Shown: one piece after another, positions 1 through 7,068 of the stretch
Numbering within the stretch: position 1 is the first letter of the stretch
Layout: each line of letters opens with the position of its first letter
DNA from: Halanaerobiales bacterium
GTDB lineage: Bacteria > Bacillota > Halanaerobiia > Halanaerobiales > M55B127
Assembly (NCBI GenBank): GCA_018399995.1
Contig: JAGYMU010000013.1
Location: 1 to 32,243 of the forward strand
DNA: 32,243 nt
Reading direction: 5' to 3'
Made by a program: the position numbers and the translations under genes
Notes under the pieces: model-generated
The model's database searches: none
The model's input: the letters and a program-made list of their open reading frames with translations, nothing else
Told to the model about the DNA's origin: nothing

Positions 1-1147
1 TTTGAAGTACATCAATATTCCCTTCCCGCATTACAAGTTTAGCCGTCTTATGTATGGCACCCTTTTTACCCAATTTCTCAGAAGTCGAAACCAATTTAAT
101 TTTAATATCTGTCATTAGATAAGGCTTAGAAAGAATATTACGGGCTTCTTTGTAAATATTATCAACTGTAAGATCATTTTGTACTACTTCAGGAACTATT
201 TCACTGTCTGATAAAATATTGGGCATACCGAAATAATCTTTCTTATAAAATAGTTTAGCAATTTGATAGGTTAGATTGCTGGTTTTATATATAATCACCA
301 TAGGTGTATTTAAAATCATTGCTTCCAAAGTTGCTGTACCAGAAGTAACGATAGCAAAACGAGACAACTTTAAAACAAGGTGGGTATGGTCTTTTACAAC
401 CTTCACCTTAATCGGATGTTTGATCAAAATATCTTCAATTAAATCAGCCAACTTTAAATTTGCTGCAGGTATGAAAAAAACATAATTGCTATTATCCTTC
501 TTTAGTTTAAGAGCTGTTTCAATCATGAGGGGAAGCAGTTTTCTGATTTCCTCTTTTCTGCTACCCGGCAGTAAAGCAATAGGAAATTCATTATCCTTAA
601 TTTCAAAGATTTCATTTAGTTCAACATTATCCAGATTAACATCAATTTTATCTACTAAAGGATGCCCCACAAAAACAGTTTCAGCACCCTTGGCTCGATA
701 TATATCTCTTTCCATGGGAAAATTCGCTGCTATTACGGCACCATATTTGGCCATTTTTCTTGCTCTCCATTCACCCCACAACCAGGCTGAAGGAGGGAAA
801 TAATCTACAACGGGTATGCCTAATCTTGCACCCATTTTAGCCATCTTAATATTAAAACCAGAAAAGTCAATCAAAAAAAATACATCAGGTCTCCTTTCCT
901 GGGCAGCATTTTTTAAAATATCATAATTATGTTTATGTACTTTGTAATTTTTTATTGCTTCTAAAAATCCAATAGAGTTAATTTCAGTCGGATCAATAAT
1001 TATTTCCACAGATTGTTCTTTCAATCTATCTGAACCCATACCAAAGAATTCTACCACGGGATTAAGTTTTTTTATCTCTTCAACAACCTCTGCTGCCCTC
1101 TGGTCACCTGATAATTCACCAGTTACAACCATCACTTTACTGGACAT
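1..1147 (-). CDS. lpxB: Lipid-A-disaccharide synthase LpxB, 3' end cut by window edge
   Basis: LpxB joins UDP-2,3-diacylglucosamine and lipid X to form the lipid A disaccharide at the inner face of the cytoplasmic membrane. The minus-strand reading frame is open from the ATG at 1147 to the left edge, giving about 382 residues; E. coli LpxB is 382 residues long, so only a few codons are probably missing. Visible family motifs in order: GELSGD near residue 10, LIDFSGFN near 95, PSAWLWGEWRARKMAKY near 120, FVGHPL near 160, LPGSRKEE near 190 and SGTATLEAM near 260. The start lies 1 base after the lpxI stop, and its Shine-Dalgarno GGAGGAGG sits inside the end of lpxI, which suggests translational coupling. 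It is the last visible gene of the outer-membrane block. Confidence 0.95.
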   Translation of the reverse strand, partial: MSSKVMVVTGELSGDQRAAEVVEEIKKLNPVVEFFGMGSDRLKEQSVEIIIDPTEINSIGFLEAIKNYKVHKHNYDILKNAAQERRPDVFFLIDFSGFNIKMAKMGARLGIPVVDYFPPSAWLWGEWRARKMAKYGAVIAANFPMERDIYRAKGAETVFVGHPLVDKIDVNLDNVELNEIFEIKDNEFPIALLPGSRKEEIRKLLPLMIETALKLKKDNSNYVFFIPAANLKLADLIEDILIKHPIKVKVVKDHTHLVLKLSRFAIVTSGTATLEAMILNTPMVIIYKTSNLTYQIAKLFYKKDYFGMPNILSDSEIVPEVVQNDLTVDNIYKEARNILSKPYLMTDIKIKLVSTSEKLGKKGAIHKTAKLVMREGNIDVLQ

Positions 1148-1148
1148 T

Positions 1149-1964
1149 TTAAACCTCCTCCGGTGATATAGATATTATAGATAAATTAGCCCGATCAGCT
1201 AATTTAATAATTTCCCTTTGATTAATGATTAAAATCTTTTTGCTCTCTAAAACGAGACCTTTTGCATTTATAAAAATCAAATTTCTAATTGTATCTAAAC
1301 CTATTGTAGGAATATCGAAACGGAAATCATGTCTGTCTTTACTCACTTTAGCCATAACAGTACCTTTTTTAACCAAGCTGCCTGCTCTCTTAATGGTCAG
1401 ATCCGTACCTTCCAGAGCTTCAACAGCTACTACAGCTTTATCTTTAGTCAATATAGTTTGTCCGATGTTTAAGTTGGCAATTTCCTTCGCTTTTTGATAA
1501 GCATACTGCATCTCTTTTTTCAATTGTTGATCAGGTTCAATATTATTAATTTGACCACTATTAACTAAAAAATCATCCATAAATATCCTCTGATCTAAAA
1601 CTTCTAAGTTTTCTTTATTAAATTCCTCAACTATTTTTGCTAATATAGTATGATCTTCTAAATCTTGAAGCTTCAAAAATAACAAATTAAATCTTTGATC
1701 AAAATTATTTTTTTTAAAAAGATGCTTTTTATCCACTTTACCCAACATTATTATTTTATCTAAATTATAATTTTTCATCTTCTTAATTAGTCTATCCAAC
1801 TGGGTTAAGTTTAAATAATCTGCCGTATAAGCATAACCAGCGATATTTGCGCTGTATTCTTCATTAATCAAAAAGGCGTGTACCCTCACATCTTTCTTAT
1901 TGGCTTTTTTAATCCAAAGTAGTGGTAATTTTCCATATCCAGCTATCAGTCCTACTTTTTCCAT
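1149..1964 (-). CDS. lpxI: UDP-2,3-diacylglucosamine pyrophosphatase LpxI (DUF1009 family)
   Basis: LpxI hydrolyses UDP-2,3-diacylglucosamine to lipid X, the step done by LpxH in E. coli. The 271-residue length matches the LpxI family. The N-terminus VGLIAGYGKLPLL is the family glycine-rich signature, IIMLGKVDKKHLF lies near residue 95, and the C-terminal RFDIPTIGLDTI block matches the conserved region holding the catalytic Asp in characterised LpxI (family knowledge from Caulobacter). The ATG is preceded by AAGGTG at good spacing. It lies between lpxA (15-base gap) and lpxB (1-base gap), the expected position for the fourth lipid A step. No LpxH-like gene is in the window. Confidence 0.93.
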   Translation of the reverse strand: MEKVGLIAGYGKLPLLWIKKANKKDVRVHAFLINEEYSANIAGYAYTADYLNLTQLDRLIKKMKNYNLDKIIMLGKVDKKHLFKKNNFDQRFNLLFLKLQDLEDHTILAKIVEEFNKENLEVLDQRIFMDDFLVNSGQINNIEPDQQLKKEMQYAYQKAKEIANLNIGQTILTKDKAVVAVEALEGTDLTIKRAGSLVKKGTVMAKVSKDRHDFRFDIPTIGLDTIRNLIFINAKGLVLESKKILIINQREIIKLADRANLSIISISPEEV

Positions 1965-1979
1965 AACAATTACACCTTT

Positions 1980-2780
1980 CTAACGACAAATACCCCTTTT
2001 CACATTTCTTAAAAATCTTAAAAAGTATTCTATATTTTGATCTGCATTCAAGGTATTATCCATTTCCATAATTGCTTCATCTATGTTCAAATCAGATCTG
2101 TATAATATCTTGTATGCCTTTTTAATTTCTCTTCTTACTGCAGGTTTTATGCTGTTTCTTCTTAAGCCAATTACATTTATGCCGGAAACCTGAGCAGGAT
2201 GTCCATCCACAATTATATAAGGTGGTACATCTTTTAACACATTAGAGTGTGCCCCCACCATAGATATTCTACCAATTCTAACATATTCTTTTACATTGGT
2301 CATACCTGCCACCACTGCTTGATCTTCTATTATGACATCTTCCCCTATAGATGTAGCATTAGACATAATAACATCACTGGAAATATTGCAGTTTGCAGAA
2401 ATGTGACAGTAAGCCATAATCATATTGTTGTTGCCTATTTTAGTCTCAGCATTGCCGCGATCTGAATCGCTTTTTATATTTACATATTCTCTGAATATAT
2501 TATTATCACCAATAAATATCTGACCTTCTTTTTTAACCCCTTGTGGGCATGAACCAATAGACACACCATGGTATATTTTATTTGCTTTTCCCAAAAAAGT
2601 ATCTCCGGTAATTGTAACATGGGTTCCAATTTTAGTATCATCCCCTATTTTTACATGTGGCCCGATAATTGAATAAGGTCCTATTTCCACATTTTTACCA
2701 ATCTCTGCCTTTGGGTGAATATATGAATTTTTATAATTATCAGATATATTAATCACTTTATTGTTTTTATTTGAGCTCAA
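1980..2780 (-). CDS. lpxA: LpxA-type UDP-GlcNAc O-acyltransferase with altered active site
   Basis: By family and position this is the first lipid A enzyme, acylating UDP-GlcNAc at O-3 from 3-hydroxyacyl-ACP. The 266 residues form a left-handed beta-helix of hexapeptide repeats (about residues 20-190) followed by the C-terminal helical part, with the LpxA landmarks DVPPYIIVDGHPA and GINVIGLRR, and KKAYKILYRS matching E. coli NAYKLIYRS. Aligned by eye to E. coli LpxA without gaps through the core, the general base His125 is Ala129, Asp74 is Gly81, His99 is Lys103, His144 is Asp148, His160 is Lys164 and Glu200 is Ile204. His122 (His126), Lys76 (Lys83), Asn198 and Arg204 are kept. The reading frame is intact. 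The start is TTG at 2780 with upstream GGAGC. About 18 residues precede the usual N-terminus. Membership of the family is clear; the exact reaction is uncertain. Confidence 0.85.
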   Translation of the reverse strand: MSSNKNNKVINISDNYKNSYIHPKAEIGKNVEIGPYSIIGPHVKIGDDTKIGTHVTITGDTFLGKANKIYHGVSIGSCPQGVKKEGQIFIGDNNIFREYVNIKSDSDRGNAETKIGNNNMIMAYCHISANCNISSDVIMSNATSIGEDVIIEDQAVVAGMTNVKEYVRIGRISMVGAHSNVLKDVPPYIIVDGHPAQVSGINVIGLRRNSIKPAVRREIKKAYKILYRSDLNIDEAIMEMDNTLNADQNIEYFLRFLRNVKRGICR

Positions 2781-2802: not shown

Positions 2803-3246
2803 TTATTTCATTGCAAAAAGCAGTCTGCCTTCTGCTACCAAATCATCATCAACAAATGCCTTAGCATAAACCTTAGCTGCTCTCTTCTTAAAATTAATAA
2901 TATCACAAATCAGCTTAAGCTGATCGCCCGGCTGCACAGGTTTTCTGAATTTAGCCTTATCAATACCGGCAAAATAAGGTAGAGAATCATTTTCTTGTTC
3001 AACACTGTACAGCATTAAAAGACCGCCTGCTTGAGCTAAAGCCTCTATAATAAGAACTCCAGGCATTATGGGTTTATCTGGATAATGGCCCTGGAAATAA
3101 TTTTCGTTATAGCTGACATTTTTGATTGCAATAATTTTTTTCTTCGGTTGAAAATCAAGAACTTTATCTACCAATAACATGGGATATCTATGTGGTAAGA
3201 CATCCAATATATCTTCAATATTATGCAAATTATTCACCCCATCCAT
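2803..3246 (-). CDS. fabZ: 3-hydroxyacyl-ACP dehydratase FabZ
   Basis: FabZ dehydrates (3R)-hydroxyacyl-ACP in fatty acid elongation, competing with LpxA/LpxD for the same substrate, which explains its usual place in lpx clusters. This is a 147-residue single hot-dog domain. Motifs: HRYPMLLVD at 19-27, the catalytic His54 in GHYPDKPIMPGVL, and the catalytic Glu68 in EALAQAGG. The ATG at 3246 overlaps the end of lpxC by 17 bases. That ATG has no convincing Shine-Dalgarno, and an in-frame TTG at 3228 preceded by GGATGGGG is an alternative start, so the exact N-terminus is uncertain. It is a separate gene and not fused to LpxC as in Bacteroidetes. Confidence 0.95.
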   Translation of the reverse strand: MDGVNNLHNIEDILDVLPHRYPMLLVDKVLDFQPKKKIIAIKNVSYNENYFQGHYPDKPIMPGVLIIEALAQAGGLLMLYSVEQENDSLPYFAGIDKAKFRKPVQPGDQLKLICDIINFKKRAAKVYAKAFVDDDLVAEGRLLFAMK

Positions 3247-4123
3247 TTTTTATTTTTAAAGCCTGAATGTGCCGGTTTAGCTCATAGTTATTACTGTGTC
3301 CAGTTTTGATTCCTATAATTTCACAAATAATGGGACCATTTAAATATAAATCTCCCACCATATCTAAAACTTTATGCCGGACAAATTCATCATCAAATCT
3401 TAACTCATTAACAACACCATCTTTATTTAGTAAAACAGCATTTTGTAGGCTGCCCCCTAAGGCCAAACCTCTTTTTTTTAAGTCTTCAACCTCACTTTTA
3501 AAGCCAAAGGTACGCGCCGGCATAATTTCTTTGACAAAACTGTCTTTATCAAAGATATATTCCAGATATTCTGTCCCAATTATGGGATGGTTATATTTTA
3601 AAAGATAGTTTATTTTGAAAACATCAGAAGGAAACAAACCAAGATAAGTATCTTTTTCTTTTAAGTGAATACTCTGCTTGATCTTGAAAATTTTTTTTGT
3701 TTTCTTCTGACCTTTTATACCAGCCTTTGTTAAAAGCTCACCATATAATTTAGCACTGCCATCCAGGGCGGGCAGCTCCTCATTATTAATCTCTATCATC
3801 AAATTATCAATATTAAAGGCCCTTAAAGCTGCCATCAAATGTTCAATAGTCTGTACTCTGATCGAAATATCCCTGTGACCAATAGTTGTGGATCTCCTTG
3901 TTGAAGTTACATTATCAACCACAGCTTTGATTTCAGGCTGTCCTTTAAGGTCAGTTCTCTTAAAAACTATTCCTGAATCTACAGGAGCCGGTTTTAAAAC
4001 GAGTTTAACCTTCTGTCCACAATGGAGACCAATTCCACAAATATTAACTTCTCTGTTTATTGTTTTCTGTTCGCGTAACTGCTCGGACAAAGCATTCATC
4101 CCCTCAATTAATAAACACATCAC
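3230..4123 (-). CDS. lpxC: UDP-3-O-acyl-GlcNAc deacetylase LpxC
   Basis: LpxC is the zinc hydrolase that deacetylates UDP-3-O-acyl-GlcNAc, the committed step of lipid A synthesis. Numbering from the longest start: Glu94-His95 in IEHLMAAL, the MPARTFGF loop at 201-208, and the zinc and catalytic residues His250 and Asp254 in HKVLDMVGD and His276 in TGHSNN. All correspond to E. coli Glu78/His79, His238, Asp242 and His265. The N-terminal TINREVNICGIGLHCG block is typical. The start is not settled: GTG at 4123 or ATG at 4120 follow AAAGGTG too closely, ATG at 4099 touches GAGGGG, and TTG at 4090 has that GAGGGG at 9 bases and would bring the numbering close to E. coli. It overlaps fabZ and follows lpxD by 22 bases. 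Confidence 0.95.
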   Translation of the reverse strand: MMCLLIEGMNALSEQLREQKTINREVNICGIGLHCGQKVKLVLKPAPVDSGIVFKRTDLKGQPEIKAVVDNVTSTRRSTTIGHRDISIRVQTIEHLMAALRAFNIDNLMIEINNEELPALDGSAKLYGELLTKAGIKGQKKTKKIFKIKQSIHLKEKDTYLGLFPSDVFKINYLLKYNHPIIGTEYLEYIFDKDSFVKEIMPARTFGFKSEVEDLKKRGLALGGSLQNAVLLNKDGVVNELRFDDEFVRHKVLDMVGDLYLNGPIICEIIGIKTGHSNNYELNRHIQALKIKNGWGE

Positions 4124-4145: not shown

Positions 4146-5198
4146 TTATTTTTCTTTCTTTAAATCAAATATCTCTTTTCTATAATTAACTAACTTATTT
4201 TTAAGTGCTCTTGCTTTTAATTCATTAATCCTTTCTTGAGCAGGGTTACCTAAATAAAAAGAATCCTCCGGAATATCGGAAGTCACAATACTTGCGGCTC
4301 CAACTTTAACATTATCACCAATTTTAACATGATCAAAGACTGCAACCCGGCCTGCCAGGATGACGTTATCCCCTAAAATCGAACTACCACCAATTGCTAC
4401 ATGTGCAACTAACAGGCAATTAGAACCTATTTGTACATTATGACCAATTTGAACCTGGTTGTCAATTTTTGTCCCTCTTTTAATAATTGTAGAGGTTTGA
4501 GTCGCGCGGTCTATGGTGACTACAGCTCCTATTTCTACCTCATCTTCGATAATTACATTACCAAGTTGAGGAATATGATGATGTTTGCCCTCTGAAAAAA
4601 CATATCCATAACCCTCAGAACCAATAACTGTAGATGCCTCGATAATAACATCTTTACCGATTATACTATCCCTCTCAATCACAACATTAGGGTGTATTAC
4701 AGTATTTGAACCGATCCTAACGTTCCTACCAATTTTTACACCAGGGGCTATCACAACATCTTTTTCAATTATTGTGTTTTCACCTATATATGAACCGCTG
4801 TTAATAGAAACATTTTGAGCTATAGAGACATTTTTTTTGAGTACTGCCGTCTGATCCACTCCAGGATTATAATAAGGGACAGGATTGAATAGCTGAGCAA
4901 TTTGAGCATAACTCAATCTTAAATTTTTTACTTTTATCAAATTCTTAATATCATTTTCCCGGCAATTCTCATCGACTAACACTACTCCTTTTGCCTTTTT
5001 TTCAGCCTCTTTAATATGTTTTTGATTTTCGGCAAAGGTAATTCTATCCAGTCTGTTATTTGCTATACTGCTAACACCTCTTATGGTATGTTCTAAAGGA
5101 AACTGTCCTTCATATTGGCCATCTATTTTTGTGAGCAGTTCTTTTATCTTATATGTTGTTTTAACCTCATTTTTATCTTTATAGCCACTTGGTTTCAT
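4146..5198 (-). CDS. lpxD: UDP-3-O-acylglucosamine N-acyltransferase LpxD
   Basis: LpxD adds the second hydroxyacyl chain (N-2) to UDP-3-O-acylglucosamine. The 350 residues comprise an N-terminal uridine-binding domain (about 1-110), a hexapeptide left-handed beta-helix (about 115-320) and a short helical C-terminus. The catalytic His is kept at His253 in [11 protein letters not shown] (E. coli His239), and [19 protein letters not shown] at 207-225 is a strong LpxD signature. In contrast to the LpxA of this cluster, its active site looks normal. The ATG starts 2 bases after the stop of the upstream OmpH-like gene, with GAGG inside that gene's end, so the two are probably translationally coupled. 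Confidence 0.95.
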
Positions 5199-5200
5199 TT

Positions 5201-5632
5201 TTAATCAGCCTCATAATATTTCTCATCTAATAATTGAGCAACTTCATTTGTAATATCTTCTCCACCATAATATACTCTATTTTTATATAGAACTACAGAA
5301 TACTTATTATTTTTGTTTATTTCTTTTATTACCTGTTCAATCTCTCTATTTAACTGATCTTCGATTTCCTGTTTTTCTTGTGTATATTTAATATTTATTT
5401 GGTTTTCATCAATTTCTTCGTTTTCAGCCTGATTATCATTATTTTCAAACTCTTCTTTAAGTTCTTCACCTTTTTTTTGTAGTAATATCTTCAGCTGATT
5501 TGCCCTTCCACTATCTTTTATCAGCCTTTCCATATCAATAATAGCAATTTGCTTTTCTGTACTGTAGAAGTTATAGTATGCTGTTAAACCAATAATGATT
5601 AATATCAGTATAATTGAAAGCTTTTTATACAT
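5201..5632 (-). CDS. OmpH/Skp-family periplasmic chaperone, membrane-anchored (second copy)
   Basis: Skp/OmpH proteins hold unfolded outer-membrane proteins in the periplasm for BamA. The 143-residue protein has a hydrophobic N-terminal segment (about 5-21) with no clear signal peptidase site, so it is probably anchored. It continues with the family start block IAIIDMERL, a charged coiled-coil middle (about 48-105) and the family C-terminal block [18 protein letters not shown], which matches the usual VLDKxxVLYGGxDIT end. The start ATG abuts the preceding stop codon, and its Shine-Dalgarno GGAGAGG overlaps that stop. It lies just upstream of lpxD, as skp does in Proteobacteria. It is shorter and more diverged than E. 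coli Skp. Confidence 0.82.
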
Positions 5633-6592
5633 TTAATTCCTCTCCTTGTTCACAGTTGAATATGCACTTTTTAAGACCTCCAGATCATCTTTGACAACCT
5701 CATCAACAATTTTTAGCACAGCTAATATTTCCTGCTTCTCTTCATTAATGAGTTCTTCAGCCTGATTAATATTATGCGTGGCTGCAATATATCTCTGCTG
5801 TTGGTAAGTACGATAAGACTCCTCTATTTCTCTTTTCTTATTTGCGACAAGCTCGTTTTTTTTCTCTGTAAATTTTTCTAGTAAATAACTCACCTTTTCC
5901 TCTTTATTTTCATTGAGTAGTTGACTTGCTGTTTTCAACTCATAATATATTTCATTTAACTTATTATTTATTTTAATTCTCTTTTCAAGCTCTATTTTTG
6001 CTATCTTATCTCTGTATTCTTTTTTTTGCTCATCTGTAAGGTCCAGTGTTTCTAACTTTAATCTATAATTTAAAAGCTCATTACTCCTTTGTTTTTTAAG
6101 CTCGCTTTCAAAATCTTTGAACTCTTCTCTGTAATTTTTGATTAAATTTTCAAGAGATCTCTCTACTTCATAATCAATCATTGAACTGTAATAAGCTATC
6201 TTTTTATCCAATATATCATCGGCCTCTATTTTATATTCTGCAAATTGTCTGTCTAACTCTTCTCTTAATTTTGCAATATCACTGCTGTATTGATCAAAAT
6301 ATAATACATATTTATTAAACTGTACCTCACTAAAAGATATTTCGTAATCATTACTTAATTTCTCCTGCCGAGCTGCCCACTGCTCTTGATCATCTAAAGA
6401 AGCTGCAAAAGGAACTTTGAATATATCTACAAATAAGGTTGGCTCAAAATCTGGCTCAATTGAATATGCCTCTCGATCTATATTGAAGGAAGGCGATCTG
6501 GCTTCTTCAATTTCAAAGAATATTATATAGGTGAAAAGCCCTGTTATAATAATTAAAACAATCAATATAACATTAACAATATCTCTGAACAT
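5633..6592 (-). CDS. Membrane-anchored long coiled-coil protein, family not recognised
   Basis: I do not recognise this 319-residue protein. It has one hydrophobic N-terminal segment (about 6-26) with no obvious cleavage site, a non-helical stretch to about residue 95, then nearly continuous charged heptad-like sequence rich in Glu, Lys, Leu, Gln and Arg (about 110-290) predicted to form long coiled coils. It therefore probably projects into the periplasm. It sits between two OmpH/Skp-like genes and downstream of bamA, with gaps of 0 and 20 bases, so a role in outer-membrane protein transport or envelope spanning is likely by context only. It could be an enlarged OmpH paralogue, but the typical OmpH end block is missing. 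Confidence 0.7.
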   Translation of the reverse strand: MFRDIVNVILIVLIIITGLFTYIIFFEIEEARSPSFNIDREAYSIEPDFEPTLFVDIFKVPFAASLDDQEQWAARQEKLSNDYEISFSEVQFNKYVLYFDQYSSDIAKLREELDRQFAEYKIEADDILDKKIAYYSSMIDYEVERSLENLIKNYREEFKDFESELKKQRSNELLNYRLKLETLDLTDEQKKEYRDKIAKIELEKRIKINNKLNEIYYELKTASQLLNENKEEKVSYLLEKFTEKKNELVANKKREIEESYRTYQQQRYIAATHNINQAEELINEEKQEILAVLKIVDEVVKDDLEVLKSAYSTVNKERN

Positions 6593-6612
6593 AACCCGAT
6601 CTTCCTTCCCTC

Positions 6613-7068
6613 TTATTGTTCGGTAATACTTTCTAAAATTAAGGGAGTCATGTTTATCCCGCCCTCTAATATGTCTTCATTTTTTAGCATTAATTTCACC
6701 TCATTGTCTTCTGCAACTTTCTGAATAGTTATTTTTATATCAGCTACAATATTATCGATCAACTCATTCTCTTTTTGAGATAATAAATCCTGGTAATCAT
6801 TAATCAACTTCTGATGATCTTTTTTGGGTACATCTTCTAGTTTGTTCTCCAATTCAAATTGAAGATCTCTGGCAAGATCATTGATTTCATTTTCAGCCTT
6901 TTCCTTGGAAGGGTGGTTGACAAAAATTGTCTGAATATCTACATAACCGATTTGATCAGCTAACTCGTTTTTATCTTCTAAATTAAAGTAATCAATCAGG
7001 AGTAATAAACCGCTTATTCCTACAACAATCACTACTATAATTATAAATATAATATTATTTTTATCCAA
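6613..7068 (-). CDS. OmpH/Skp-family periplasmic chaperone, membrane-anchored (first copy)
   Basis: This 151-residue protein begins with a strongly hydrophobic segment (about 6-27) and continues with IGYVDIQTIFVNHPS, a good match to the OmpH opening block, then a coiled-coil region (about 58-120) with the LINDYQDLLSQKENEL heptad stretch seen in Skp-like proteins, and an end block LMLKNEDILEGGINMT matching the family C-terminus. It should trimerise and hold unfolded outer-membrane proteins. The start is TTG at 7068 with AAGGAG 9 bases upstream. It lies 25 bases after bamA, the bamA-skp order of Proteobacteria. The hydrophobic anchor appears uncleaved, which differs from soluble E. coli Skp. 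Confidence 0.85.
   Translation of the reverse strand: MDKNNIIFIIIVVIVVGISGLLLLIDYFNLEDKNELADQIGYVDIQTIFVNHPSKEKAENEINDLARDLQFELENKLEDVPKKDHQKLINDYQDLLSQKENELIDNIVADIKITIQKVAEDNEVKLMLKNEDILEGGINMTPLILESITEQ

Follow-up and report, generated by a model that had tools for sequence, protein, structure and literature searches.

LpxA is the first enzyme in the synthesis of lipid A (endotoxin) and, in its known form, a homotrimer with three identical sites. We have analyzed a stretch of 32,243 nucleotides from a Halanaerobiales bacterium (contig JAGYMU010000013.1, positions 1 to 32,243, assembly GCA_018399995.1; referred to here as the window) in which the lpxA gene, located at 1980-2780 on the minus strand, codes for a protein devoid of the catalytic side of the active site. 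The same genome (G000) contains a second LpxA that keeps the catalytic side and has lost the opposite one. We have referred to the window gene as beta and to the second copy as alpha. Judging from the sequences, we give a probability of about 0.8 to beta being one half of an obligate hetero-oligomeric LpxA formed with alpha, probably a trimer with a single working site.

Reciprocal loss of the two faces of the active site

The substrate of LpxA sits between two subunits, and its contacts have been assigned to each monomer (PMC7072397, Table 1). One monomer contributes face A, the uridine and acyl side (R204, R205, N198, M170, I152, I134, L116 and M118), and the other contributes face B, the N-acetylglucosamine (GlcNAc) and catalytic side (Q73, D74, L75, K76, H125, G143, H144, Q161 and F162). 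Other papers (PMC6286764; PMC6408518) agree in setting H99, H122 and G143 against N198 and R205, and also list G155, M170 and G173. Residue numbers follow the E. coli (Ec) LpxA; the sequence used for numbering agrees with that of the PDB chain.

Both copies exceed over their full length the cut-off of the LpxA model TIGR01852 (231 bits), with 263 bits for beta and 289 bits for alpha, and beta also exceeds that of NF003657 (285 bits, cut-off 226). The beta product has 266 amino acids, starts at a TTG codon and contains the left-handed beta-helix and the C-terminal helical domain of LpxA (matches to PF00132 and PF13720). Over this common framework, beta has lost face B and kept face A, and alpha has lost face A and kept face B. 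In beta, residues 125-131 (TGT CAC ATT TCT GCA AAC TGC, i.e., C-H-I-S-A-N-C) place His126 at the position of Ec His122 and Ala129 at that of His125, the general base. The original prediction, made by eye from the window alone, had already read Ala129 (GCA) at this point, and the alignment, which is gap-free there, bears it out, together with D74G, H99K, H144D and H160K, the retention of K76 and H122, and the presence of the catalytic His in the neighboring LpxD. To these changes D126N, G143E and Q161E have to be added, and the catalytic set H125, D126, G143, H144, H160 and Q161 reads A, N, E, D, K and E. The predicted E200I is real but not unusual, V or I being found there in all the canonical LpxA of the class that were read. 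On the uridine and acyl side M118, G155, M170, N198 and R204 are all present.

A residue other than His (A or other) was found at position 125 in 11 out of 11 beta-type copies from the window genome and related genomes. Nor is this a loss by chance. Some 75 LpxA of many different phyla have all retained H125, and among the sequences fetched only the beta-type copies of Halanaerobiales departed from this. As no variation at H125, M118, N198 and R204 was seen in other phyla, among the full-length LpxA that were checked, the losses in alpha and in beta are both exceptional. Sequencing or assembly error was rejected, since the same state is found in sister genomes and both genes appear on single contigs.

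It had been proposed that His126 could act as a substitute base. Beta would then be an acyltransferase itself, with this base or with none, for example one that N-acylates an amino sugar. The window copy and those of its genus do have His122, and some sugar N-acyltransferases of the LpxA fold, such as QdtC, need no catalytic His. However, this position is occupied by Arg, Gln or Val in the betas of G031, G024-G027 and G030, for which reason His126 was rejected as the base, and the rest of the face (G143, H144, H160, Q161, D126 and H99) is lost as well. Across the betas no consensus has taken the place of the oxyanion glycine, Gln161, His144, His160 or the sugar loop, all of them lost and variable from copy to copy. 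Furthermore, the genes gnnA and gnnB described below travel with alpha and not with beta. We consider an acyltransferase made of beta alone very unlikely.

Alpha keeps H99, H122, H125, D126, G143, H144, H160 and Q161. Its changes are M118K, G155R, M170L, R204D, D74N and K76G, N198 being kept in the G000 copy. Among the alphas the replacements in face A, including those of M118 and R204, are scrambled and have produced no new consensus. The alphas of the f5 family combine N198G with a deletion over approximately Ec 200-204, most of the uracil-binding segment, and therefore cannot hold uracil or uridine diphosphate (UDP) on their own in the known way.

A set of 24 canonical LpxA of the class has 89 positions with an invariance of 95% or more, and retention was assessed over these. 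Alpha retains 0.29 of face A and 0.89 of face B, beta 0.89 and 0.09, respectively, and at all other invariant positions the values are 0.77 for alpha and 0.70 for beta. None of 100,000 permutations gave a split as extreme. A test by coil phase that does not depend on the literature (Ec 108-185, 18 residues per turn) located nearly all alpha losses in phases 8-11 and the beta losses in phases 14 to 1, i.e., in a separate column of the beta-helix, with one clear exception, D149. This is a pattern of complementary losses of paralogues at a shared interfacial site. The ratio of nonsynonymous to synonymous substitution rates (dN/dS) against sister genomes was 0.02-0.12 for beta and 0.01-0.06 for alpha (dS was saturated for wider pairs). 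Both genes are under purifying selection, and on these values the status of pseudogene was rejected for beta.

Two other roles for beta have to be weighed here. Alpha alone might form a working homotrimer in which the contacts to the nucleotide and the acyl chain are changed, beta being a relic or a redundant paralogue in the process of being lost. The score of alpha, well over the family cut-off, the conservation of every catalytic residue and the natural variation of some face A positions (M170 and G173) in other phyla would fit. However, the scrambled positions of alpha include M118 and R204, with the invariance already mentioned, the uracil-binding loop is deleted in the f5 alphas, and the constraint that remains on beta, a gene under purifying selection, falls precisely on the face that alpha has lost, something unexpected of a relic. 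We consider this scenario unlikely. Alternatively, beta could serve an alpha trimer as a scaffold or a regulator, with UDP or acyl-acyl carrier protein as effector, and not complete the site. The uridine and acyl contacts kept by beta could bind such ligands, but alpha would be left without a uridine and acyl face of its own. The residues kept are the exact complementary half-site, which can be explained with fewer assumptions if beta completes the site, and a purely regulatory beta seems to us quite improbable.

The second LpxA and its gnnA-gnnB neighborhood

Alpha was found by profile search at 2777-3562 of contig C169 of G000, which makes two LpxA above the family cut-off in this genome. 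C169 and the window contig align 65 bases apart to one contig of genome G034, and alpha can therefore be placed ca. 12 kb beyond the left (lpxB) edge of the window, with lptB, an lptF/G-like permease gene and other envelope genes in between. It had been suggested that the window protein might be non-catalytic, with the LpxA activity elsewhere. A second LpxA with all the catalytic histidines does exist at this distance, but it lacks the other half-site. This second copy is not canonical, and the view of beta as a redundant paralogue of a canonical LpxA was rejected because alpha is missing the half-site that beta retains.

Downstream of alpha there is a Gfo/Idh dehydrogenase gene (PF01408) followed by a DegT aminotransferase gene (PF01041), the arrangement of gnnA-gnnB, whose products act in the UDP-GlcNAc3N pathway (PMC5644692). 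The best NCBIfam model for gnnA is UDP-GlcNAc 3-dehydrogenase (259 bits, below its cut-off of 450). Wherever the flanks of an alpha locus could be read, the pair was next to alpha, except in G031, which has no gnnA. GnnA with at least 62% identity was present in every alpha genome but G031 and absent from all the genomes that lack alpha. Relatives with 52-57% identity, in gnnA/gnnB-like pairs, were detected in three genomes (G009, G011 and G013); in the two whose neighborhood was read (loci L103 and L104 of G009 and G011) they are located away from any lpxA. At locus L043 of G031 (96% complete) a gnnB-like gene comes directly after alpha, and gnnA was not found in the genome.

A proposed composite site and its probable substrate

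With the faces taken from the papers cited, we infer the assembly, stoichiometry, activity and substrate of the enzyme from the sequences, their reciprocal loss, co-occurrence, gene order and selection. In LpxA each site lies between two subunits, face B of one (His125, His122, Gly143, His144, His160 and Gln161) providing catalysis and GlcNAc binding, and face A of its neighbor (Met118, Gly155, Met170, Asn198 and Arg204) binding the uridine, the phosphate and the acyl chain. The site would work only where face B of alpha meets face A of beta, and in a mixed cyclic trimer, either alpha2-beta or alpha-beta2, exactly one site would work and the other two would be dead. The acceptor of the complex is probably UDP-GlcNAc3N made by GnnA and GnnB, which would give a 3-N-acyl product to be passed on to LpxC, LpxD, LpxI and LpxB. 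This acceptor is suggested because gnnA-gnnB adjoin alpha and D74 and K76 are changed; the LpxA of Leptospira has Gly at position 76 (PMC7072397). It is weakened by the score of gnnA below the family cut-off and by the alpha of G031, without gnnA. The original prediction of another nucleotide sugar may thus hold for the complex, mainly on account of the neighborhood of alpha.

Several points weigh against a heteromer. The faces come from structures of other species, and one of the sources (PMC6408518) is not fully consistent in the placement of Gln161. Complementarity of net charge between the two dead faces, which looked promising in the genus of the window, was rejected because it is inconsistent across lineages. 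The AlphaFold monomer was poor from 6 sequences and moderate from 31 (predicted local distance difference test, 77.8), and its best PDB matches, although all LpxA, reached a template modeling score of only ca. 0.4. The window genome is only 80% complete. Genome G036, of the same genus and 62% complete, has beta without alpha, and the alpha of G033 retains most of face A, the main lpxA of this genome being absent from the assembly.

Distribution and history

Among 59 genomes of the class we found three states of lpxA. The usual one is a single canonical LpxA in the lpx operon. In four genomes (G004, G006, G022 and G023) a canonical LpxA coexists with an alpha with gnnAB, the face A of which is already degraded. 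In the third state beta is in the operon and alpha with gnnAB elsewhere (G000, G034, G035, G037, G031 with gnnB only, G024-G027 and G030). The reciprocal loss is repeated in all ten, the beta of G026 and the alpha of G027 being only partial. An LpxA without H125 was always accompanied by alpha, with the exception of G036. Nearly complete genomes (G025 99%, G024 98%, G034 and G027 97%, G031 96%, G030 and G026 95%, G035 93%) contained only alpha and beta and no two-faced LpxA, and both genes are on a single contig in G034, G037, G031 and G025, so that the pair is not a binning artefact. Alpha is also present in G029 and G033; the operon stretch expected to hold the main lpxA is missing from both assemblies (no lpxI was found).

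Some variants deserve mention. Beside an intact canonical copy, G047 has a second LpxA without gnnAB (L095, 1051-1848, minus strand) with G143E, H160Y and Q161E and with H125 kept, apparently an independent and partial loss of the catalytic face. The beta of G030 is within an open reading frame (ORF) of 638 amino acids (L086, 9418-11334, plus strand) with long low-complexity Lys/Gly/Ser tails at both sides of the LpxA domain. In G001 (95% complete, same order) there was no clear LpxA and no LpxI was found, and this microbe may have lost its lipopolysaccharide (LPS).

The alpha copies form one clade (98/94, all columns), although its monophyly is weaker without the face columns (not rejected, p 0.365). 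The betas branch among canonical LpxA in two places of the tree, but their branches are long and a single clade is not rejected (approximately unbiased test, p-AU 0.099), which leaves one or two losses of the catalytic face by the main LpxA. In the simplest history, a duplication would have yielded alpha with gnnAB, alpha would have lost its face A at a time when that of the main LpxA was still available, and the main LpxA would then have lost face B, locking the cell into the heteromer. The four genomes with canonical LpxA plus alpha look like a surviving intermediate stage. The complete scheme, in which alpha and beta form an obligate LpxA that has one composite site, is dedicated to UDP-GlcNAc3N and was derived by stepwise complementary loss through this stage, has in our opinion slightly better than even chances. 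If this history is true, these four microbes would make two lipid A precursors via mixed trimers.

Genes of the window

The gene order around beta is lpxD-lpxC-fabZ-lpxA-lpxI-lpxB (Table 1). Between bamA and lpxD (5201-7068) there is an ORF of 319 amino acids, coiled-coil-like, flanked by two small OmpH/Skp-like ORFs.

Table 1. Features of the lpx operon and of the beta product in the window.
Feature	Position	Strand	Evidence
lpxA-beta, LpxA homologue without the His/GlcNAc face and with the uridine/acyl face	1980..2780	-	TIGR01852, residue table, dN/dS 0.02-0.12 vs sister genomes
Codon GCA, Ala129 = E. coli His125 (general base)	2394..2396	-	sequence, gap-free alignment
Lys164-Glu165 = E. coli His160-Gln161 (catalytic face, lost)	2286..2291	-	alignment
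Glu147-Asp148 = E. coli Gly143-His144 (catalytic face, lost; oxyanion/6-OH contacts)	2337..2342	-	alignment
Met122 = E. coli Met118 (uridine/acyl face, kept)	2415..2417	-	alignment; face per PMC7072397
Met174 = E. coli Met170 (uridine/acyl face, kept)	2259..2261	-	alignment; face per PMC7072397, PMC6408518
Asn202 to Arg208 = E. coli Asn198-Arg204 (uracil/phosphate-binding segment, kept)	2157..2177	-	alignment; PMC7072397
fabZ	2803..3246	-	TIGR01750 193 bits
lpxC, substrate = LpxA product	3230..4123	-	TIGR00325 285 bits
lpxD with catalytic His	4146..5198	-	TIGR01853 307 bits
lpxI	1149..1964	-	PF06230/PF17930 above cut-offs
lpxB, runs off the window	2..1147	-	TIGR00215 241 bits

Comparison with known systems

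LpxA is a drug target that textbooks present as a homotrimer, and its His125 has been called absolutely conserved. Our search of the open literature, as far as it is searchable, gave no description of an LpxA made of different subunits, and in the passages found of a study from 2016 on the LPS of Halanaerobiales there is no mention of a second lpxA. If the proposal is true, lipid A synthesis can turn hetero-oligomeric at this step. Both the earlier and the later stage of the split seem to survive in living relatives, making the transition from homomer to obligate heteromer directly testable. A practical caution is that neither copy alone can safely be annotated as active LpxA or as pseudo-LpxA.

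The system shares with the E. coli type of LpxA (UDP-N-acetylglucosamine 3-O-acyltransferase, TIGR01852) the fold, the family and the operon position of beta, and alpha and beta together supply nearly all parts of the active site. However, the known enzyme is a homotrimer with three identical sites, and in our case one gene product carries one face of the site and a second gene product the other. In the LpxA of Leptospira and Acidithiobacillus, which work with GnnA and GnnB, the likeness is with alpha, which adjoins gnnA-gnnB, as the lpxA of Acidithiobacillus does, and has lost Lys76 like the LpxA of Leptospira. Those are single proteins with both faces, whereas alpha lacks the uridine and acyl face and Asp74. 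The nearest precedent is the gamma-carbonic anhydrase heterotrimer (CA/CAL) of plant mitochondria, with paralogues that have lost histidines and only one interface that can be active (PMC7447434). It is a left-handed beta-helix trimer with interfacial sites, as the alpha-beta assembly would be. The plant protein is a different enzyme in which some sites have simply been inactivated, without the two-sided division that would leave every subunit with half a site.
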